From the IMG/VR virus record IMGVR_UViG_3300010371_000124, positions 1 through 20,467 of that record: a DNA stretch of 20,467 nucleotides; one strand, 5' to 3'. The number at the start of each line of letters is the position of its first letter. Positions within the stretch are counted from its first letter, which is position 1. The position numbers were made by a program, and so were the translations under genes. Origin of the DNA: a virus. The notes below the pieces were generated by a model. That model was not told the origin of the DNA and searched no databases. It worked only from the letters and a program-made list of their open reading frames with translations. Positions 9,012-20,467 of the stretch are shown here, one piece after another.

Positions 9012-9371
9012 ATGGCATCAGCCAAGAATAACGACAAGCCGCTTGGTAACATCAAGCGCGTCAATATCGAGCATGAGACCAATCCGGATCCGGCTCAGTA
9101 TCCGCTCAAGTCGGGGAAGCTGGTTACGTTCCCGGACATCTTCGATCTTCCGACCGAAGAAGCAGAAGCCCTGCTTGACGAGATGAACGCTGCCGCGAGC
9201 AACGGCAAGGTCAGTCCGTTCCTGAAGAAGTGGCTGTCCAAGGAGGATTACGCCGCTCTTGATGCGGAATACCCGACCATGCGCCGGGTCCGCCCGGTGT
9301 TCTACGCCGTCATGAACTACTACCAAGGTACGTGGGGCGACGGGGGGGAAGGCGACGCCTCCGAGGGCTGA
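9012..9371 (+). CDS. Tail assembly chaperone, short form (G)
   Basis: A 119-aa product of the zero frame, the equivalent of lambda gpG. GGAGGT lies 6 nt before the ATG. The middle is helical (PTEEAEALLDEMNAA, then SPFLKKWLSKEDYAALDAEY), and the end is Gly/Asp/Glu-rich (TWGDGGEGDASEG). It ends at TGA 9369-9371, shortly after the slip site. The short form is made in excess and coats the tape measure before tube assembly. Position between the major tail protein and the tape measure, with the overlapping downstream frame, makes the assignment firm. Confidence 0.9.
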   Translation: MASAKNNDKPLGNIKRVNIEHETNPDPAQYPLKSGKLVTFPDIFDLPTEEAEALLDEMNAAASNGKVSPFLKKWLSKEDYAALDAEYPTMRRVRPVFYAVMNYYQGTWGDGGEGDASEG

Positions 9372-9826
9372 TAAGCCGTTTCCGCCGCGAGGTCCGCGCC
9401 GACCTGATGCAGGTGTACGGCGTGGATCTCGCGGAGTGGTATGCGGCCGGACGCTGGGTGGCGCTACTTGATTTCATCGACATGTTGCCAAGCGCGTCCC
9501 GGCTCAACGAGGCGATAACCAACGATCCAGAAGCGGCCGCCCTGCTGGCCGAACAGTACCTGGCCTCCCGCGGCGAGGCCGAGGACGAAGATGCTGGCGC
9601 CCCCCGCGTTTCCGAGTATGGCCTCGCCAATAAGCAGTTGGGCGATCTGCTGAACGAGATGAAGCAGGTCAAGCAGGCGATCATTGCGTCTGCCGGCATG
9701 AAGCCGAAGTCCGAGAAGCCTTCGCCAACCCCGCGTACGGGGATCGAGAAGGCCATTGCTGCTGCTGAGCGCAAGTGGGCCGAGGACTTCATTCAACAGT
9801 TTGGGTTTTCCCCGGACGACATCTAA
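9012..9826 (+). CDS. Tail assembly chaperone, -1 frameshift product (GT)
   Basis: Ribosomes that slip back one base at the G run (9342-9348) continue in the frame that stays open to TAA 9824-9826. If slippage follows codon 9348-9350, the fusion has 271 aa: 113 from the short form plus 158 from the second frame. The T part begins RRRLRGLISRFRREVRADLMQVYG, the conserved start of this half in actinophages, and continues with the Asp/Tyr-Trp motif LAEWYAAGRW and helical, acidic and Lys-rich sections. The longer form links chaperone and tube protein. The second frame has no credible start of its own; a GTG at 9332 lies before the slip site and lacks a ribosome-binding site. Confidence 0.85.
9341..9350 (+). 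promoter_or_regulatory. Probable -1 ribosomal slip site
   Basis: The bases are CGGGGGGGAA. In the zero frame the codons are GGG GGG GAA (9342-9350), so the heptamer G-GGG-GAA (9344-9350) allows the P-site tRNA to re-pair perfectly after moving back one base, while the A-site has a second-position G-U type pairing. C-GGG-GGG (9341-9347) is an alternative. A small hairpin, AGGC (9350-9353) with GCCT (9357-9360) and a 3-nt loop, follows at once and may contribute. The downstream ORF is in the -1 frame, as required. Confidence 0.75.
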
Positions 9827-9846
9827 ATAGTGATTCGAGGTGCCCC

Positions 9847-12800
9847 ATGCCGGTTGTCGGTGTTGCTGAGGTAGAGGTCCGCCCAATCACAAAGGGTGCA
9901 CAGCGTACCATCGCCAAGCAGTTCGATCCTGCGGCCGAGAAGGCGGGGCAGTCGGCGGGCTCGAAGATGGGGGCCACTCTTGGTGGGGCGCTGAAGGTTG
10001 GCGCCGTTGCCGCTGGTGGCGCTGTCATCGGCGGCCTCGGTCTCGCGCTGACCAAGGGTTTCGGTCGCTTGCAGGCGATTGAGAACGCGAAGGCCAAGCT
10101 GACAGGGCTGGGTCATTCGGCCAAGACGGTCGAGGGCATCATGACGAACGCGAATGCCGCCGTGAAGGGGACCGCGTTTGGACTTGACGAGGCGGCGACG
10201 GTCGCGGCTGGTGCCGTGGCGTCGGGCATCAAGCCGGGCAAGGAACTAGAGCGGACACTCACCCTCGTTGGCGACGCGGCAACCATTGCGGGCGTGCCGA
10301 TGTCGGAGATGGGTGCGATCTTCAACAAGGTCGCGGCGTCGGGCAAGATCCAGGGCGATGTGATCGCACAGTTGGGCGATCAGGGCATCCCCATTCTGCA
10401 GCTTTTGGGCAAGCAGATCGGGAAGACGCCGGAGGAAACGGCGAAGCTTGCCTCGAAGGGCAAGATCGACTTCGAGACGTTCCAGAAGGCCATGCAAGAG
10501 GGCCTAGGCGGGGCGGCGCAGAAGTCGGGCAAGACGCTTACCGGCGCATTCAAGAACACCATGGCCGCTGTCGGTCGTATCGGCGCGAACCTGCTCTCGG
10601 GCGTCTACCCGAAGATCCAGAAGTTCTTCTCTGGCGCGATTGAGTGGTTGAAGCCGTTGGAGGAGGGCGCGAAGGTTGCCGGTGCCGCGATTGGCGACTT
10701 CATCGGGCGTGCCACGGATGGCGTGAAGGGCCTCTATGACTTGCTGGTCAAGGGCCAGTTCACCAAGGCTTTCCGGGCGGCGTTCAATGTTGAGGAGGAT
10801 TCGGTGGTTGTCGATTTCCTGTTCAACGTCCGCGACGGATTCATTCGGCTGATCGACTTCGTGCGCACTGATGTGGTCAAGTGGCTGCAGGACGCGTGGG
10901 GCTGGCTGGATCGGAACCGTTGGGTTCTGGCCGCGTTGGCAGGTGCCGCGACTGGCGCTGTGGCGGCGTTTGTGGCAATGAAAATCGTGACTACGGTCAA
11001 GGGTTGGATCACTGCTGCGACTGTGGCGTTTCAGGCCCTGAACGTTGCGATGCGCGCAAACCCCATCGGCCTGATCATCACCGCGATTGGCGCGCTCGTT
11101 GGCGCTCTGATCTGGCTGTACAAGAACAACGAGACGGCCCGGAAGATCATGGATGCCGCATGGTTGGGCATCAAGACGGCTGTGATGGTGGCGTGGAAGG
11201 TCATCTCCACGGTGATCAAGTTCGCTTGGAACTACGTGATCATGCCGATATTCAAGGCGATCAAGTGGTATATCCAGAACGTGGTCGGGCCGATCTTCTC
11301 TTGGCTCTACAACAACATCGTGAAGCCGATCTGGTTCCTGATTTCCACGGCGATAAAGATCGCGTGGGCGGTCATCGAGACGATCTTCCTGGCGATCCGC
11401 TGGTACATGCGGAATGTCGTGGGCCCGATCTTCCGGTGGCTGTACGAGAACATCGTGAAGCCGGTTTTCGACAAGGTCGGCAAGCACATTTCGCTGGTCT
11501 GGAACAAGGGCATCAAGCCTATCTTCCAGGCGCTCGGGGCGTTCATTGAGAAGCATGTCGCCCCGGCTTTCAAGCGTGGTGTGGATGCGATTTCGCGGGC
11601 GTGGTCCGCGATCAAGTCCGCAGCCGCCAAGCCGATCAACTTCGTCATCGACACGGTGTACAACAACGGTTTGCGGAAGGCGCTGAACAAGGTTCGTTCC
11701 ATCGTGGGCGGCGATCCCCTGCCGTCCTTGCCCCTCATTGGCATGGGCACTGGCAACAAGGGTGTCGCTACGTCGGGTGGTCCGATGCGGGCGTTTGCCA
11801 AGGGTGGTTTCGCTTCCCGTGGCTGGGCTCTCGTTGGCGAGGAAGGCCCCGAGCTGGTGAACTTCACGAACCCGGGCCGCGTCTACACGGCTGCCGAGAC
11901 GAACCGGATGCTCGCCGGTAAAGAGCAGATGCCGATGGGCGCGCTCGAACAGGGCCAGCAAGCCCACAAGGGCATTGGCGGGTTCTGGTCGGATGCCGTC
12001 GCGAAGGGCATGTCGTTCGTTCGTGGCGGGCTTGCGTCTGCTGCGGGGATGGTGTTGAAGCCGGTCAAGAACGCGCTGTCGTCCATGATCGGCGGCACCG
12101 GTCTTGGCGACATGGCGGCGTCGTTGGTTCGGTCCACGATTGACAAGGCGTTGTCGTGGATCGCGGGCAAGGATGTCGTCACCGGAGGTTCTGCTGGCGG
12201 GTTCGTCGGTGGTTATGACGGACCCCTGGGGCGGTTCTTCCGTCCGGGTGGGCGCATCACGTCGGGCTTCGGTTCGTCCCGCGGCCGTTACCCGCACGCC
12301 GGCATCGACTTCGCCGTCCCGATTGGGACTGCGGTGAAGGCCGCGTTCGACGGGGTCGTGCAGAAGATCGGCTGGAACATCGTTACCGGGCGTTCGGGCA
12401 AGGGGCTTCTCATGGGCCACGGCAACCGGATGAACTCCTACTACGGGCACCTGTCCGGGTGGGCTGCGAAACCGGGCGACAAGGTCAAGGCGGGTCAGAC
12501 GATTGCCTACTCAGGCAACACCGGCAAGAGCACCGGCCCCCACCTGCACGAGGAGCTGTGGAGGAACGGGCAGCCGTTCAACTTCGCCTCCTACCTGTAC
12601 GACAACGGGGGCGTCCTGAATCCGGGGCTCACGTCGATTGTGAACGCGTCCCGGAAGCCCGAGGCGATCCTGAACAACCAGCAGTGGGCAGACATCCACA
12701 AGCTGGCGCTAAAGGGCACGACGACGGTCACCCCGGCTGTCCCGGATGGCACGACGTTCGTCATGCAGTTCGGGTCGGAGCAGGTTCTGGCCAAGGTCGT

Positions 12801-12849
12801 CAATAAGGGCGTCCACGAGTTGAGCCGCGGAAAGAAGGCAATCGTTTGA
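9847..12849 (+). CDS. Tape measure protein with M23 peptidase domain
   Basis: A 1000-aa protein. It sets tail length (at about 0.15 nm per residue, at most about 150 nm) and is ejected ahead of the DNA. Residues 1-250 hold the tape-measure core (KAKLTGLGHSAKTVEGIM, then GDAATIAGVPMSEMGAIFNK). Hydrophobic segments lie at about 50-70, 359-385 and 400-560. A Trp/Pro-rich block is duplicated at about 472-540. Residues about 800-930 are an M23 metallopeptidase (LytM) domain with the full zinc set: H817 and D821 in HAGIDF, H899 and H901 in HLH. It probably opens peptidoglycan during entry. Start 9847 has GAGGTG 4 nt upstream; an in-frame GTG at 9775 lies inside the chaperone frame and lacks a site. 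Confidence 0.95.
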   Translation: MPVVGVAEVEVRPITKGAQRTIAKQFDPAAEKAGQSAGSKMGATLGGALKVGAVAAGGAVIGGLGLALTKGFGRLQAIENAKAKLTGLGHSAKTVEGIMTNANAAVKGTAFGLDEAATVAAGAVASGIKPGKELERTLTLVGDAATIAGVPMSEMGAIFNKVAASGKIQGDVIAQLGDQGIPILQLLGKQIGKTPEETAKLASKGKIDFETFQKAMQEGLGGAAQKSGKTLTGAFKNTMAAVGRIGANLLSGVYPKIQKFFSGAIEWLKPLEEGAKVAGAAIGDFIGRATDGVKGLYDLLVKGQFTKAFRAAFNVEEDSVVVDFLFNVRDGFIRLIDFVRTDVVKWLQDAWGWLDRNRWVLAALAGAATGAVAAFVAMKIVTTVKGWITAATVAFQALNVAMRANPIGLIITAIGALVGALIWLYKNNETARKIMDAAWLGIKTAVMVAWKVISTVIKFAWNYVIMPIFKAIKWYIQNVVGPIFSWLYNNIVKPIWFLISTAIKIAWAVIETIFLAIRWYMRNVVGPIFRWLYENIVKPVFDKVGKHISLVWNKGIKPIFQALGAFIEKHVAPAFKRGVDAISRAWSAIKSAAAKPINFVIDTVYNNGLRKALNKVRSIVGGDPLPSLPLIGMGTGNKGVATSGGPMRAFAKGGFASRGWALVGEEGPELVNFTNPGRVYTAAETNRMLAGKEQMPMGALEQGQQAHKGIGGFWSDAVAKGMSFVRGGLASAAGMVLKPVKNALSSMIGGTGLGDMAASLVRSTIDKALSWIAGKDVVTGGSAGGFVGGYDGPLGRFFRPGGRITSGFGSSRGRYPHAGIDFAVPIGTAVKAAFDGVVQKIGWNIVTGRSGKGLLMGHGNRMNSYYGHLSGWAAKPGDKVKAGQTIAYSGNTGKSTGPHLHEELWRNGQPFNFASYLYDNGGVLNPGLTSIVNASRKPEAILNNQQWADIHKLALKGTTTVTPAVPDGTTFVMQFGSEQVLAKVVNKGVHELSRGKKAIV
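11260..11463 (+). repeat. Internal repeat in the tape measure protein
   Basis: Two copies of a 23-residue block, encoded at 11260-11328 and 11395-11463, are 45 residues apart. Eighteen of 23 positions are identical, with the pattern I-[KR]-WY-x-x-NVVGPIF-x-WLY-x-NIVKP. The residues before each copy are also related (ISTVIKFAW and ISTAIKIAW), so the true unit is about 45 residues. Such repeats are a usual way for tape measures to grow by duplication. The Trp and Pro phasing suggests hydrophobic hairpins, which might line the tube or insert in the membrane. Confidence 0.8.
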
Positions 12850-15919: not shown

Positions 15920-15948
15920 GGAAGGCCCCCATGCGTTGGGGGCCTTCC
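15920..15948 (+). terminator. Perfect stem-loop after the Tal-like gene
   Basis: GGAAGGCCCCC (15920-15930) pairs base for base with GGGGGCCTTCC (15938-15948), with loop ATGCGTT. This is an 11-bp GC-rich stem, 11 nt after the stop codon. No U tract follows, but many actinobacterial terminators lack one. It lies 18 nt before the next start and just 8 nt before that gene's ribosome-binding site (GGGAGG, 15957-15962), so it may also tune expression of the deacetylase-like gene. An in-frame ATG in the loop (15931) is not a credible start. Confidence 0.8.
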
Positions 15949-15966
15949 CTATCACTGGGAGGCACT

Positions 15967-17751
15967 ATGCCGGAAACGACCGCTGGCGGCATTCAGTACC
16001 CGATTGCCGGGGACTTCATCAAGCAGGACAGCATCGAGGCAAAGCTGGCTAATGACATGCGCGACCTCGCGCAGACGGCAGACAACGCGATCCAGGTCGC
16101 GGCAGAGGCCGCCGAGTGGACAAAGCCTGATGCCACGGGAACCACGGCGAATGCACTCACCACTTCCGGCGTCCGCCCAGTCTCGTCGGCCGTCGCCGCA
16201 GCCATGGCGAACCTCCCTCCACTCACCGGGGCAGGGTCGATTGAGGCGATCCCCAACGGCGGCTCGGGCGTTTCCCAAGTGTGGCGCAGCAATAACGGAT
16301 ACAACGAGCCGCGAATACTTCACCGTGCCGGTGCCTCCAACGGGGCGTTCCCCGGACCGTGGGTGTCCTTAACTGACATCCCAGAGCCAGTCACCGAGGG
16401 CGCGCCCCTGGCCTCATATACGACTCCCGGAAATTACGGCACTCCAAGCGCGGCCACGGCGGCAACGGTTCCCGACATGCCTTCGGGCGTCGCCGGGCAG
16501 CCCTTCCACCTGCGGGTCACCGCCGACCGCACGGGCCTCACATCATACCGGGGCGTCCGTTGGCTTACGGTTCTCCCGTACGCGACAGGGCAGGCACCAC
16601 GCGGGTTCCGGCAGAACTTCACGCAGGCCGGCGTCGACCACGACTGGATCGAAGAAGTGCTGGATGAGCCAGAACGCTCGCCGCATCACCGGGAGCTTAT
16701 GCTTGAGAGGGCCCGCACCCGTCACGGTGGCCGCATCGGGACGGGCGGCAAGGGCGTCGTGGTGATCACCATCGACCACGCCTTTGACCGCTTCGAGTCC
16801 AAACTCATGGCAAAAGTCATTGATCACCAGCTTCCTATAACACTCGTTCCCTCGCCCTCGGACTTCGGCGGACTCGGCAACGAAACCATGACCTTCGCGA
16901 AGCTCCAGTCATGGGCTATTCAATATGGGTGGGAAATCGTCAACCACTCACGCGACCATGGCGACGCAGTAGCGGACTCCCTCATTCGCGACAAGATCCT
17001 AGGTTCCCTGGAAGCATTACATGCAGGCTGCCCGTTGGTCACAATCGACGGATACGTGATGCCCGGAGTGGGCGCGACGGGGTACAACGGATTCGACGCG
17101 GGGGCGGACTTGTCACAGTGGTGGTCCCACATCGCGGGTCGCACCATTCTTGACAACCATGCTGTGGTCTCCTCGGTTACTCCCGGCTACGTGGTGCCGC
17201 TATCCGGGGCGCCCGTGACCGCCATGACCCGGCTGGGAGTTGACATCACATCCTGGGCAGGGCTGGCGGAAGATATGGTGGTGGAGGCTGGCGCACTAGG
17301 CGGCATGGTGAATATTTACGGCCATCCCATCCGCTTGGACCAAGAAGGCTACATTTCGTCGGAGCGATGGGGCCAGATGTTGGACTTCATCGCTGCCGAA
17401 CGCGATGCAGGGCGAGTTGAAGTCCTGACCATGGGCGCTGCGGCGTGGGCGGACGCAGGGTCATCCCACGTGGTGAATCTGGCGAAGAGCGCGGCGTGGG
17501 TGTCGGGCTCAGCGACCATTGATCTTTCCCGCGCCTACGCATGGGCCCGAGGATCGACGTGGGAACTGTCAGTGGATAGCGCCGCCGCGGTGACACTATC
17601 GGCAAGCGACGATACGGGCGCGTTGAACATTTCCCGAACAATTACGCCTAATGGGGGGCGGGCGCGGCTGGGCTTCTCGATCCCGGCCGCTTCAAGCAGC
17701 CTCACGGTGTCTGCTTCCGGAGGGGACGGGCCGACAGTAAAGCCCGTCTAG
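15967..17751 (+). CDS. Tail protein with polysaccharide deacetylase-like (CE4) domain
   Basis: A 594-aa protein. Residues 1-95 are a phage-tail-like, Ala-rich attachment region; 95-250 are beta-rich. About 262-500 resemble the NodB/CE4 fold: VVVITIDHAF at 265-274 (D270; usual motif TFDD, here TIDH), FAKLQSWAIQYGWEIVNHSRDH with the H327-S-x-x-H331 zinc motif, and MVNIYGHP with H453 as the late catalytic His. CE4 enzymes remove acetyl groups from glycans or peptidoglycan with a D-H-H metal triad. The C-terminal 90 residues are a beta-rich Ser/Ala domain. GGGAGG precedes the ATG. It is probably the receptor-binding or depolymerising spike. The second Asp of TFDD is His here, so activity must be tested. 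Confidence 0.8.
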   Translation: MPETTAGGIQYPIAGDFIKQDSIEAKLANDMRDLAQTADNAIQVAAEAAEWTKPDATGTTANALTTSGVRPVSSAVAAAMANLPPLTGAGSIEAIPNGGSGVSQVWRSNNGYNEPRILHRAGASNGAFPGPWVSLTDIPEPVTEGAPLASYTTPGNYGTPSAATAATVPDMPSGVAGQPFHLRVTADRTGLTSYRGVRWLTVLPYATGQAPRGFRQNFTQAGVDHDWIEEVLDEPERSPHHRELMLERARTRHGGRIGTGGKGVVVITIDHAFDRFESKLMAKVIDHQLPITLVPSPSDFGGLGNETMTFAKLQSWAIQYGWEIVNHSRDHGDAVADSLIRDKILGSLEALHAGCPLVTIDGYVMPGVGATGYNGFDAGADLSQWWSHIAGRTILDNHAVVSSVTPGYVVPLSGAPVTAMTRLGVDITSWAGLAEDMVVEAGALGGMVNIYGHPIRLDQEGYISSERWGQMLDFIAAERDAGRVEVLTMGAAAWADAGSSHVVNLAKSAAWVSGSATIDLSRAYAWARGSTWELSVDSAAAVTLSASDDTGALNISRTITPNGGRARLGFSIPAASSSLTVSASGGDGPTVKPV

Positions 17752-17915
17752 GCAGGTTCCTGATTGTTCGCCGTAATGGTCCCGTCGGCGTGGCACGTGT
17801 GGCCGTCATTTGGGAAGCCGGGGAGTGGCGCGAACACTGCGCCGCATTCTTCACAGAGGTCGAACCCCATGTCGTGAGCGTAGGCGCGGGATTCTGACGT
17901 AATCGGCTGGGCCAT
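17748..17915 (-). CDS. Small Cys/His protein, unknown function
   Basis: A 55-aa protein on the minus strand, downstream of the HTH gene. It has one probable zinc knuckle: C21-E-E-C24 with H39 and C41-H42 (HTCH at 39-42), preceded by a short helix (SRAYAHDMGFDL). The ATG at 17915 has AAAGGAG 7 nt upstream; an ATG at 17921 is in frame but only 1 nt from the same site. Its stop TAG shares the palindrome CTAG (17748-17751) with the stop of the plus-strand tail gene, so the two genes collide with no spacer. Function is unknown; small zinc-knuckle proteins of this type occur in actinophages. Confidence 0.7.
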   Translation of the reverse strand: MAQPITSESRAYAHDMGFDLCEECGAVFAPLPGFPNDGHTCHADGTITANNQEPA

Positions 17916-17917
17916 GG

Positions 17918-18109
17918 TCATGCTCCTTTGATGATTTTGTGGACTTGCTGTTTGGACAGGCCGAGGTGGGTGGCGAGTTCTTGCGCGCTCACCCCGGCCA
18001 GTCTGGCATCCTTCACGGCCGCGTCTCGTTCTGCAGCCGCTTGGATGAAGTTCTGGTTGGCGGTGGCCAGTCGGTCTTGCGCTGCCTTCGCCTGTTCTAT
18101 CGTGCTCAC
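17918..18109 (-). CDS. Small HTH DNA-binding protein
   Basis: A 63-aa protein on the minus strand. Residues 1-37 form an Ala-rich helix or coiled coil; 38-60 are a helix-turn-helix (GVSAQELATHLGLSKQQVHKI), followed by a short basic end. A longer form starting at TTG 18139 exists, but that codon lacks a ribosome-binding site. GTG 18109 is preferred because a TACTAT box (18124-18119) lies just upstream, which would give a nearly leaderless message. The TGA (17920-17918) overlaps the upstream ATG choice of the next gene and lies 2 nt before its ATG at 17915. It is a probable transcriptional regulator, perhaps of itself or of late genes. Target unknown. Confidence 0.82.
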   Translation of the reverse strand: MSTIEQAKAAQDRLATANQNFIQAAAERDAAVKDARLAGVSAQELATHLGLSKQQVHKIIKGA

Positions 18110-18118
18110 GGCACCACC

Positions 18119-18150
18119 ATAGTAAACCCCCCGCGACAAAGCAAGCGGGG
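18119..18150 (-). promoter_or_regulatory. Candidate promoter and operator of the HTH gene
   Basis: Read on the minus strand, TACTAT (18124-18119) resembles a -10 element and is 9 nt before GTG 18109, so transcription would start almost at the start codon. The -35 region is weak. The inverted repeat CCCCGC (18129-18134) / GCGGGG (18145-18150), with a 10-nt spacer, covers the likely -35 position and is a possible binding site for the HTH protein. It lies between the divergent HTH and membrane-protein genes and could control both. The same repeat could instead be a weak RNA hairpin. Confidence 0.4.
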
Positions 18151-18176
18151 CACAGTCTCAAGCCCAAGGGGGGCCA

Positions 18177-18749
18177 ATGCAATACCTCAACACCGACACA
18201 TTGACCGAGATCCCCGACTACATGGCAGGGGTCACGGTCGGGCAGATACTCGCTTTCATGGGCGGGGCGTCGGTCATCATCGGCGGGCTATGGCTACTCT
18301 TGCGGCCCGTATTCCGTGGGGTGCGGGAAGTGTATCGATCAATCACCGACCTCAGCGGCAGGCCCGAACGGCTGGACGCTGCCGGGAACCTGGTGGAGGA
18401 AGCGCAACCATCATTGCGGGCATCCATCCACGCACTGCACGCGAAGGACGAGGAAACCACGGCGATCCTGAACGAGGTCCGCGAGCAGGTATCCAACACG
18501 CATTCCACGAACCTACGCGACGACTTGGACCGGCTACACCATGACGTGCGCGGCATCCGTGAAGACCTGTCCGCCGAAGTCCGTGGGATCAAGGCAGAGT
18601 ACAACGCGAACCATGCCGAGGGTTTGGCGCAGAACAGGGCGACACGGCAGGCCCTCGAAACGCAAAGCCTGACAACCAAGAAGCTCGCTGACCTTGCCGA
18701 ACTCTGGGGCCCCTACCTTCGTGAGCAGGGTTTGGATCCGGAGAAATAG
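18177..18749 (+). CDS. Membrane protein with coiled coil, DUF2746-like, holin candidate
   Basis: A 190-aa protein with one membrane segment at about 18-43 (AGVTVGQILAFMGGASVIIGG then LWLLL), followed by a basic RPVFRGVREVYR stretch and a long helical, charged cytoplasmic region (about 80-180). This matches the plan of the DUF2746 family in actinophage tail-to-lysis regions, where the short NH-S/N-x-LRDD-x-DRL pattern (here HSTNLRDDLDRLHHDV, 109-124) recurs. Its function is not settled; it could be a holin-like or membrane-linked tail factor. AAGGGGGG lies 3-10 nt before the ATG. It is the first plus-strand gene after the reverse island. Confidence 0.72.
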   Translation: MQYLNTDTLTEIPDYMAGVTVGQILAFMGGASVIIGGLWLLLRPVFRGVREVYRSITDLSGRPERLDAAGNLVEEAQPSLRASIHALHAKDEETTAILNEVREQVSNTHSTNLRDDLDRLHHDVRGIREDLSAEVRGIKAEYNANHAEGLAQNRATRQALETQSLTTKKLADLAELWGPYLREQGLDPEK

Positions 18750-19154: not shown

Positions 19155-20467
19155 GTGGCAATCATCCAGCAGGCGTCGGGCCAGTTCAACGGCAGCGGCG
19201 CATTCACGGTAGCCCTACCAGCCGCATCCTCCCCAACGTCCACCGTCGTGGTGTTGATTGCCGGTAACACGGTCGTCAGCACACCGAGCGGCTGGACGTT
19301 GCGCACCTCGCAGGTCAACTACATGGGCCACTACCTCTGGGATCGGGTAGGCGGCGGCACTTCATACCCGTTTTCCGCGAACGGGCAAGGCATATGGTGG
19401 GTTGCCGAACTCTCCGGGGCTTATGACGCGGCACTGTCAGTGAACACGGCCGCGGCGAGCACGAGCATGGCGACCCCATCCCTGACGCCTACTGCGGGCG
19501 ACCGGACGATTCTTGCATCCATCGGGTCGGTAACCGCTGGAACGAATGCGCGCACGGTCACATTCGGCAACTCATTTGTTGAGAGCCTGGATACCTACGT
19601 CGCCGCCGCCGACTACCCCTCCCACGCTCTGGCGTCACGGGAGGGTGCGGGCGGTACGGCGTATACGACCACGGGAACATGGACTACGAACGTCGTCGGC
19701 CGGTCCGCGATCATCGCCGCCTACCAGTCCCCGAGCGCAACCGAGGAACCGCCCGTCTATTCGTGGACGGCGAACCTGTCCGGCGCTGGCACGCTCGCCG
19801 GCAACCCGAGGCCGTCATTCGTTTGGATGGCGGCACTCGACGGCGGTGGGCAACTCGCGGCAACAACGGCCCCCGGATTCACATGGGACGCTGATCGTGT
19901 CGGTGATGGGCTGCTCGAAGCCACGGCATCACCGCACTTCGAGTGGGCCGCCGACCTTGACGGGTCCGGCACACTCACCGTACAGGCCACCACGGAACGC
20001 TCGTGGACGGCCCCATTCGGCGGCAGCGGCACGCTGACCACCACGGCCACCATTGCGTTCGACTGGGAAGCACTGGCGGGCGCAGAAGGCACACTAACGG
20101 CCAACGCCGCGCCAGCCTTCCAATGGGTCACACCACTCGACGGCGAAGGAACACTTGCAGCCGACATCGCACGCGGCCGAGCGTGGTATCTGATACTCAC
20201 CGGGTCCGGGAATCTCGCCGCGACCAACCGACCGCACTTCACATGGACGGCCAACCTGACAGGGGAAGGCACGCTATCGGATGAACCACAGGAGCCCATT
20301 GACATGAATCAACCATCACCGGATTGGAACCTGGTTCTCTGCAGGTGGGCCGGGGTCAAGATGGACGGCACCCCCTGCACCGGGCGGCTCAAGTTCAGCT
20401 ACAACGGGACCGGGAAGTTCCTGCTGGACGACGACCCCGAAACCCCGCTGTCCATCTACACGGCGGA
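19155..20467 (+). CDS. Repeat-containing minor tail or fibre protein, partial (runs off the right edge)
   Basis: The reading frame from GTG 19155 is open for 437 codons to the window end, so the 3' part is missing. Residues 1-195 form a beta-sandwich-like domain (STVVVLIAGNTVVSTPSGW, then GIWWVAELSGAYDAAL), common in phage fibres. Residues 202-381 are nine tandem 20-residue repeats, each with W at position 3, G at 11 and L at 13. From residue 382 a new domain starts (WAGVKMDGTPCTGRLKFSY), resembling actinophage minor tail modules that begin V.G...DGTP..G. It is probably an elongated host-contact or decoration protein. GGGGGTGAT precedes the start. The GC-rich, Ala/Gly/Thr-rich content matches virion repeat proteins. 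Confidence 0.8.
   Translation, partial: MAIIQQASGQFNGSGAFTVALPAASSPTSTVVVLIAGNTVVSTPSGWTLRTSQVNYMGHYLWDRVGGGTSYPFSANGQGIWWVAELSGAYDAALSVNTAAASTSMATPSLTPTAGDRTILASIGSVTAGTNARTVTFGNSFVESLDTYVAAADYPSHALASREGAGGTAYTTTGTWTTNVVGRSAIIAAYQSPSATEEPPVYSWTANLSGAGTLAGNPRPSFVWMAALDGGGQLAATTAPGFTWDADRVGDGLLEATASPHFEWAADLDGSGTLTVQATTERSWTAPFGGSGTLTTTATIAFDWEALAGAEGTLTANAAPAFQWVTPLDGEGTLAADIARGRAWYLILTGSGNLAATNRPHFTWTANLTGEGTLSDEPQEPIDMNQPSPDWNLVLCRWAGVKMDGTPCTGRLKFSYNGTGKFLLDDDPETPLSIYTA
19758..20297 (+). repeat. Nine tandem 60-nt units encoding 20-residue repeats
   Basis: Nine units follow each other without insertion or deletion, starting at 19758, 19818, 19878, 19938, 19998, 20058, 20118, 20178 and 20238. 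The consensus is [FYR]-x-W-x-A-x-L-x-G-x-G-T-L-x-A. W3, G11 and L13 are invariant in all nine; G9 in eight. DNA identity between units is low outside these codons, so the repeats are old and held by protein structure. The phase fits beta-hairpin or beta-roll turns with the GxG at the turn. Confidence 0.92.
20291..20306 (+). promoter_or_regulatory. Internal ribosome-binding site and in-frame ATG
   Basis: An AGGAG-type site (AGGAG at 20290-20294) lies 9 nt before ATG 20304, which is in the same frame as the repeat gene, two codons after the last repeat. It sits exactly at the boundary between the repeat block and the following domain. It could start a shorter product of the C-terminal domain, or be a relic of two genes fused in frame. 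Confidence 0.4.

Follow-up and report, generated by a model that had tools for sequence, protein, structure and literature searches.

Comparison of gene neighbourhoods shows that the conserved partner of a small predicted zinc-knuckle gene, encoded on the minus strand among the late genes of an actinobacterial siphovirus, is a tail gene whose product resembles polysaccharide deacetylases. Judged from its occurrence in the phage analysed here, in one prophage and at two chromosomal loci, the tail-tip/deacetylase cassette is where the knuckle gene belongs. The helix-turn-helix (HTH) gene with which it is coupled in this phage belongs to a widespread type and, as far as its relatives indicate, is an unlinked addition; it is the knuckle, and not the HTH, that travels with the tail-tip cassette.

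A minus-strand island among late genes

The window, meaning the whole 20,467-base stretch of the virus record, carries late genes in the order terminase, portal, capsid, tail, tape measure and tail tip. The capsid protein shares 83% identity with the MCP of Arthrobacter phage ArV2, the nearest head relative of the window phage. Neither an integrase nor a repressor is encoded in the 20,467-base fragment. Since both are annotated in ArV2, a temperate parent is likely for the window phage by analogy.

The island consists of two minus-strand open reading frames (ORFs), arranged head to tail between the plus-strand late genes at 15931-17751 and 18177-18749 (Table 1). Both ORFs described in the initial annotation are confirmed and are coding-like in their GC content by codon position. 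Their stop/start coupling also holds, as the first ATG of the knuckle gene (17921) overlaps the stop codon of the HTH gene (ATGA). At its other end, the knuckle gene converges on the upstream tail gene, and the two overlap by the shared stop bases CTAG. Searches of the DNA for Rfam, tRNA and tandem-repeat features found none.

Table 1. Features of the minus-strand island and its flanking genes in the window.
Feature	Coordinates	Strand	Details
Window, virus record fragment	20,467 bases		Late region of an actinobacterial siphovirus
Tail protein gene	15931..17751	+	phrog_11373, E 4e-60; stop TAG 17749-17751
CTAG common to the stops of the tail gene (+) and the knuckle gene (-)	17748..17751	.	Sequence
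Predicted zinc-knuckle protein gene, 55 aa, C-x2-C-x14-H-x-C	17748..17915	-	Alternative start ATG 17921
Coiled-coil and helix-turn-helix protein gene, 63 aa	17918..18109	-	GTG start 18109; TGA 17920-17918
Shine-Dalgarno AAAGGAG of the knuckle gene	17923..17929	-	Sole AAAGGAG on either window strand
Weak -10-like TACTAT, 9 nt before the HTH GTG	18119..18124	-	Sequence; scan: none above chance
Inverted repeat CCCCGC/GCGGGG, 10-nt loop	18129..18150	.	Chance level
Next late gene, DUF2746/minor-tail-associated protein	18177..18749	+	PF10874, 4e-7; phrog_404, 5e-12

The zinc-knuckle protein

The AAAGGAG element lies 7 nt upstream of the second ATG of the knuckle gene (17915), and this spacing makes the second ATG the best start. 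Relatives encoded in bacterial genomes are 43-53% identical to the window protein. An ungapped block of 34 codons, compared with the relative at L051, gives identities of 0.74, 0.76 and 0.26 at the first, second and third codon positions, respectively, and the other two relatives follow the same trend. Such a distribution is that of a minus-strand protein under selection.

The four Cys/His ligand positions of the C-x2-C-x14-H-x-C motif are invariant in the alignment of the family (A1). By this ligand pattern the product is a CCHC-type protein, with predicted metal binding. The window protein was without a match in Pfam, PHROGs and NCBIfam, and sequence searches of the PDB returned nothing usable. 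The AlphaFold model is weak (pLDDT 63) and consists of one helix and four short strands. As judged by these searches, the predicted zinc-knuckle protein is one not previously described.

The knuckle gene is accompanied by a tail deacetylase-like gene

A profile search across 396 genomes of the order recovered strong knuckle relatives in three, G470, G525 and G440. All of these fall within a single family (3 of its 47 genomes), and a class-level draw of 395 genomes yielded no further relatives. Independent occurrences of the knuckle number four in all. Two of the three genomic loci are chromosomal (L055 and L056, the latter near heparinase II/III genes), and no other relatives of the window phage were found within the 20 kb examined at either; the third is a prophage in G440. 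Separately, G525 carries a weak knuckle paralogue (L064 6957-7214; profile E 5e-5) with no deacetylase within the 14 kb checked.

At all three loci, a gene related to the upstream tail gene (phmmer E 2.5e-18 to 2e-19) lies within 1.9 kb of the knuckle gene, on the other strand. The initial annotation had not considered this tail gene as a partner. Only 16 deacetylase-like loci were found in the family, distributed over 9 of the 47 genomes, so that three out of three by chance is very unlikely; we estimate the chance proximity of a knuckle and a deacetylase gene at about 5e-4 per gene. Taken from the side of the enzyme, a knuckle neighbour was undetected at 13 of the 16 deacetylase-like loci and the knuckle is also missing from six further phage contigs that encode the tail enzyme, three of them near-identical.

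The HTH gene has no such association. None of the three knuckle loci has an HTH gene of the window type beside the knuckle, the copy in L103 also stands without one, and relatives of the HTH gene occur without a knuckle gene. The initial annotation had proposed looking for recurrence of the two genes together in other phages and had counted a failure to recur as refuting its view; at no knuckle locus found do they recur. Because each has relatives that stand without the other, a conserved pair is not supported, and we rejected a conserved HTH-knuckle two-gene regulator.

Scans of viral contigs with the HTH, knuckle, 606-aa tail, 747-aa tail and DUF2746 queries returned no relatives. A scan with a profile built from the four knuckles was also negative, though a viral copy of the G440 type is present. 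That copy was missed because the patterns and E-values obtainable with a 55-aa query are weak, and it was reached only via the tail cassette. Nor did a knuckle match appear in the stretches fetched from three prophages (G001, G002 and G003) that carry a close capsid protein.

The upstream tail gene resembles NodB/CE4 deacetylases

In its C-terminal part (about 16720-17490), the tail gene shows a relationship to NodB/CE4 polysaccharide deacetylases. Ten of the 13 members of the tail-gene alignment match PF01522 (Polysacc_deac_1; best 3.7e-8), the phage relative L109 exceeds the cut-off of that model, and relatives in Arthrobacter phages are annotated as tail protein/esterase. DH and NHxxxH are invariant in the alignment of the C-terminal part (A3). 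The window gene aligns with NodB/CE4 tail proteins, including the "esterase" of Mudcatvirus JEGGS, and keeps NHxxxH, whereas DH replaces the canonical DD of motif 1 and the window copy alone falls below the PF01522 model. Owing to these two departures, we describe the product as deacetylase-like, a putative enzyme of uncertain activity. The AlphaFold model of the deacetylase part has a pLDDT of 37. Tail enzymes that deacetylate receptor polysaccharides are common in Klebsiella prophages (PMC13123978).

A mosaic phage fragment

The window Dit, 747-aa tail and deacetylase-like proteins have homologs in the same order in the G440 prophage (L057), which is also present as an IMG/VR contig in L103. 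There the deacetylase gene is followed by the opposite-strand knuckle gene, then by a large ORF (L057 10053-11666) and then by an amidase endolysin gene on the late strand. The large ORF matched no family; by eye, its sequence looks glycosyltransferase-like. The window is a mosaic, with head and tape-measure genes like those of ArV2 and a tail tip like that of the G440 prophage. Both the HTH and the knuckle gene are absent from ArV2, whose tail tip also differs from that of the window. Inserted between phage operon genes and missing from the nearest relative, the island has the placement of an accessory locus.

In Arthrobacter phage Hum25, this slot is occupied by an O-acetyltransferase gene, which converges on the tail esterase gene at a distance of 3 nt (L003 18853-22092). 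These two Hum25 genes could form a remove-and-restore pair acting at the receptor.

A tentative accessory-locus reading and the case for hitch-hiking

We tentatively favour reading the island as an accessory, moron-type locus behind a receptor-modifying tail protein, expressed in the lysogen, with the knuckle protein acting on surface polysaccharide; we put this first among the explanations considered while holding it with less than even confidence. Weighing against it are the deacetylase-like loci and phage contigs that lack a knuckle, the G525 paralogue that stands without a deacetylase, the small number of knuckle occurrences, the weak knuckle model, and the DH motif and missing PF01522 match of the window copy. 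Three precedents taken together favour an accessory locus that affects surface polysaccharide or adsorption, namely the Klebsiella tail deacetylases, the occupied slot in Hum25 and the lysogenic genes of actinophages. In the last group, accessory genes that are expressed during lysogeny and affect phage sensitivity are an established feature (PMC6426596, PMC6426606), and the position and orientation of the window pair support a match to genes of this kind. Genes 30-31 of Sbash (PMC6426596) and 43-44 of CarolAnn (PMC6426606) are small gene groups expressed from the prophage, and the Sbash pair 30/31 is driven by a promoter of its own and lies at a distance from the repressor, beside a likely tail gene (PMC6426596). 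The window pair is likewise a small gene group that would be expressed in the lysogen. The Sbash and CarolAnn groups are, however, RexAB-like and lie near the genome centre, whereas the window pair sits within tail genes on the opposite strand, and neither its HTH nor its knuckle protein matched the Sbash/CarolAnn accessory families. Serotype-converting phages carry O-antigen acetyl- and glucosyltransferases (PMC3851460). They share with the proposed locus the use of accessory genes on surface polysaccharide, as does Hum25 with its gp27 O-acetyltransferase convergent with the tail esterase; the window, unlike these, has no recognisable transferase, only the 55-aa knuckle and the HTH.

Under the accessory-locus reading, transcription of the pair would take place in the lysogen while the late operon is silent, and the short operon may be controlled by its own small HTH protein. 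The knuckle protein would assist sugar-modifying enzymes of the host or prophage, its target being the same surface polysaccharide as that recognised or modified by the tail deacetylase, and could alter the adsorption of sibling phages. A gene on the opposite strand behind the tail enzyme shares no operon with it and stands in a favourable position for being expressed in the lysogen. In the lytic cycle, late transcription would, given the tail-to-tail stop overlap, read antisense through the pair and tend to silence it. A bolder proposal, to which we give little weight, is that the knuckle represents a new family working with or against NodB-type deacetylation. Shared by bacterial loci and prophage tail cassettes, it would be a partner at the lysogenic stage, perhaps one that masks the receptor or protects its own host, kept opposite the tail enzyme that it would balance.

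The strongest alternative is that tail-tip cassettes move between phages and chromosomes and that the knuckle gene simply lies at the border of one, functionally unconnected to the deacetylase. The mosaic structure of the window is what such exchange would leave, opposite-strand neighbours have no common operon, and with only four independent occurrences the linkage could reflect shared descent. We nevertheless regard hitch-hiking as a less likely, if serious, possibility. Identity is higher for the knuckle (43-53%) than for the deacetylase (24-31%), the neighbourhood survives at the two chromosomal loci that are free of other window-phage relatives in the 20 kb examined, and the codon-position pattern points to selection on the knuckle protein. 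If the functional link is true, a tiny zinc protein marks the place where a receptor-modifying enzyme stands beside a receptor-altering function of the lysogen, and it could serve as a compact marker when actinobacterial prophages are searched for receptor-modification loci. If there is only hitch-hiking, the knuckle is a routine accessory gene lying at a recombination boundary.

The HTH gene and the signals upstream of it

The HTH protein matches phrog_7061 (E 4.4e-9; residues 5-62, profile positions 10-67 of 70) and phrog_686 (E 2e-7), and the genome search returns the match in the window at 2.3e-10. The likeness to these DNA-binding families is near full length, but their function is generic and they have no tie to a knuckle gene. 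A tblastn search against phages and plasmids gave weak partial HTH matches only. From our reading of the sequences, the HTH is of a generic type that is also found within HicB-like and nucleotidyltransferase-fused ORFs. In L110, a further phage contig encoding this tail enzyme, the integrase gene is followed by a comparable small HTH gene, with which it overlaps by 4 nt.

The initial annotation had given the pair its own likely leaderless promoter with an inverted repeat. The scan for sigma-70-like sites found none at its threshold, against 0.2 expected, which leaves only the weak TACTAT; this is the best -10-like hexamer before the GTG, matching at four of six positions. Its spacing would allow a leaderless start at the HTH GTG, which is possible; leaderless transcripts are common in Mycobacterium tuberculosis (PMC3898074), which does not count as evidence for one here. 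The inverted repeat is present, but repeats of this kind occur 2.7 times per kb in the window, and the folding z-scores of the region (-0.6 to -1.3) are not clearly better than those of shuffles.

These results bear on the original view of the island as an autoregulated HTH/zinc-knuckle operon that opposes late transcription or favours lysogeny. In favour of such an operon are the HTH fold and its phage family match, the tight coupling of two minus-strand genes inside a late operon and the small HTH gene after the integrase gene in L110. We consider it unlikely, given that the HTH and knuckle genes are not together at the other knuckle loci found, that the operator and promoter signals are at chance level and that the HTH is generic. 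A toxin-antitoxin-like prophage moron, with the HTH protein as antitoxin and the small zinc protein as toxin, is in our judgement improbable: the sizes, the HTH-first order and the coupling fit, and the HTH is similar to the C-terminal portions of HicB-like antitoxins (phrog_8245, E 0.017), yet the knuckle relatives stand without an HTH and no toxin family was matched. That the frames opened by chance in a GC-rich genome, where spurious ORFs are many, is scarcely credible in view of the family matches, the sole AAAGGAG and the codon-position conservation, a reading refuted for the knuckle gene and unlikely for the HTH gene.

Other features of the window

Beyond the island, positions 19155-20467 hold an open-ended ORF of 437 aa, the C-terminal half of which comprises about eight degenerate units of the type F.W.A.L.G.GTL.A. 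The units are invisible as repeats at the DNA level, and the ORF has no convincing family match. The ORFs at 9012-9371 and 9332-9826, the second of which matches tail assembly chaperones, are a tail assembly chaperone set that overlaps in the -1 frame (9332-9371), and the GGGGGGGA run within this overlap is a plausible programmed frameshift site. In the tape measure ORF (9775-12849), one segment matches the product of the ArV2 endolysin (peptidase M23) gene, a match suggesting that the tape measure protein includes a peptidase domain.
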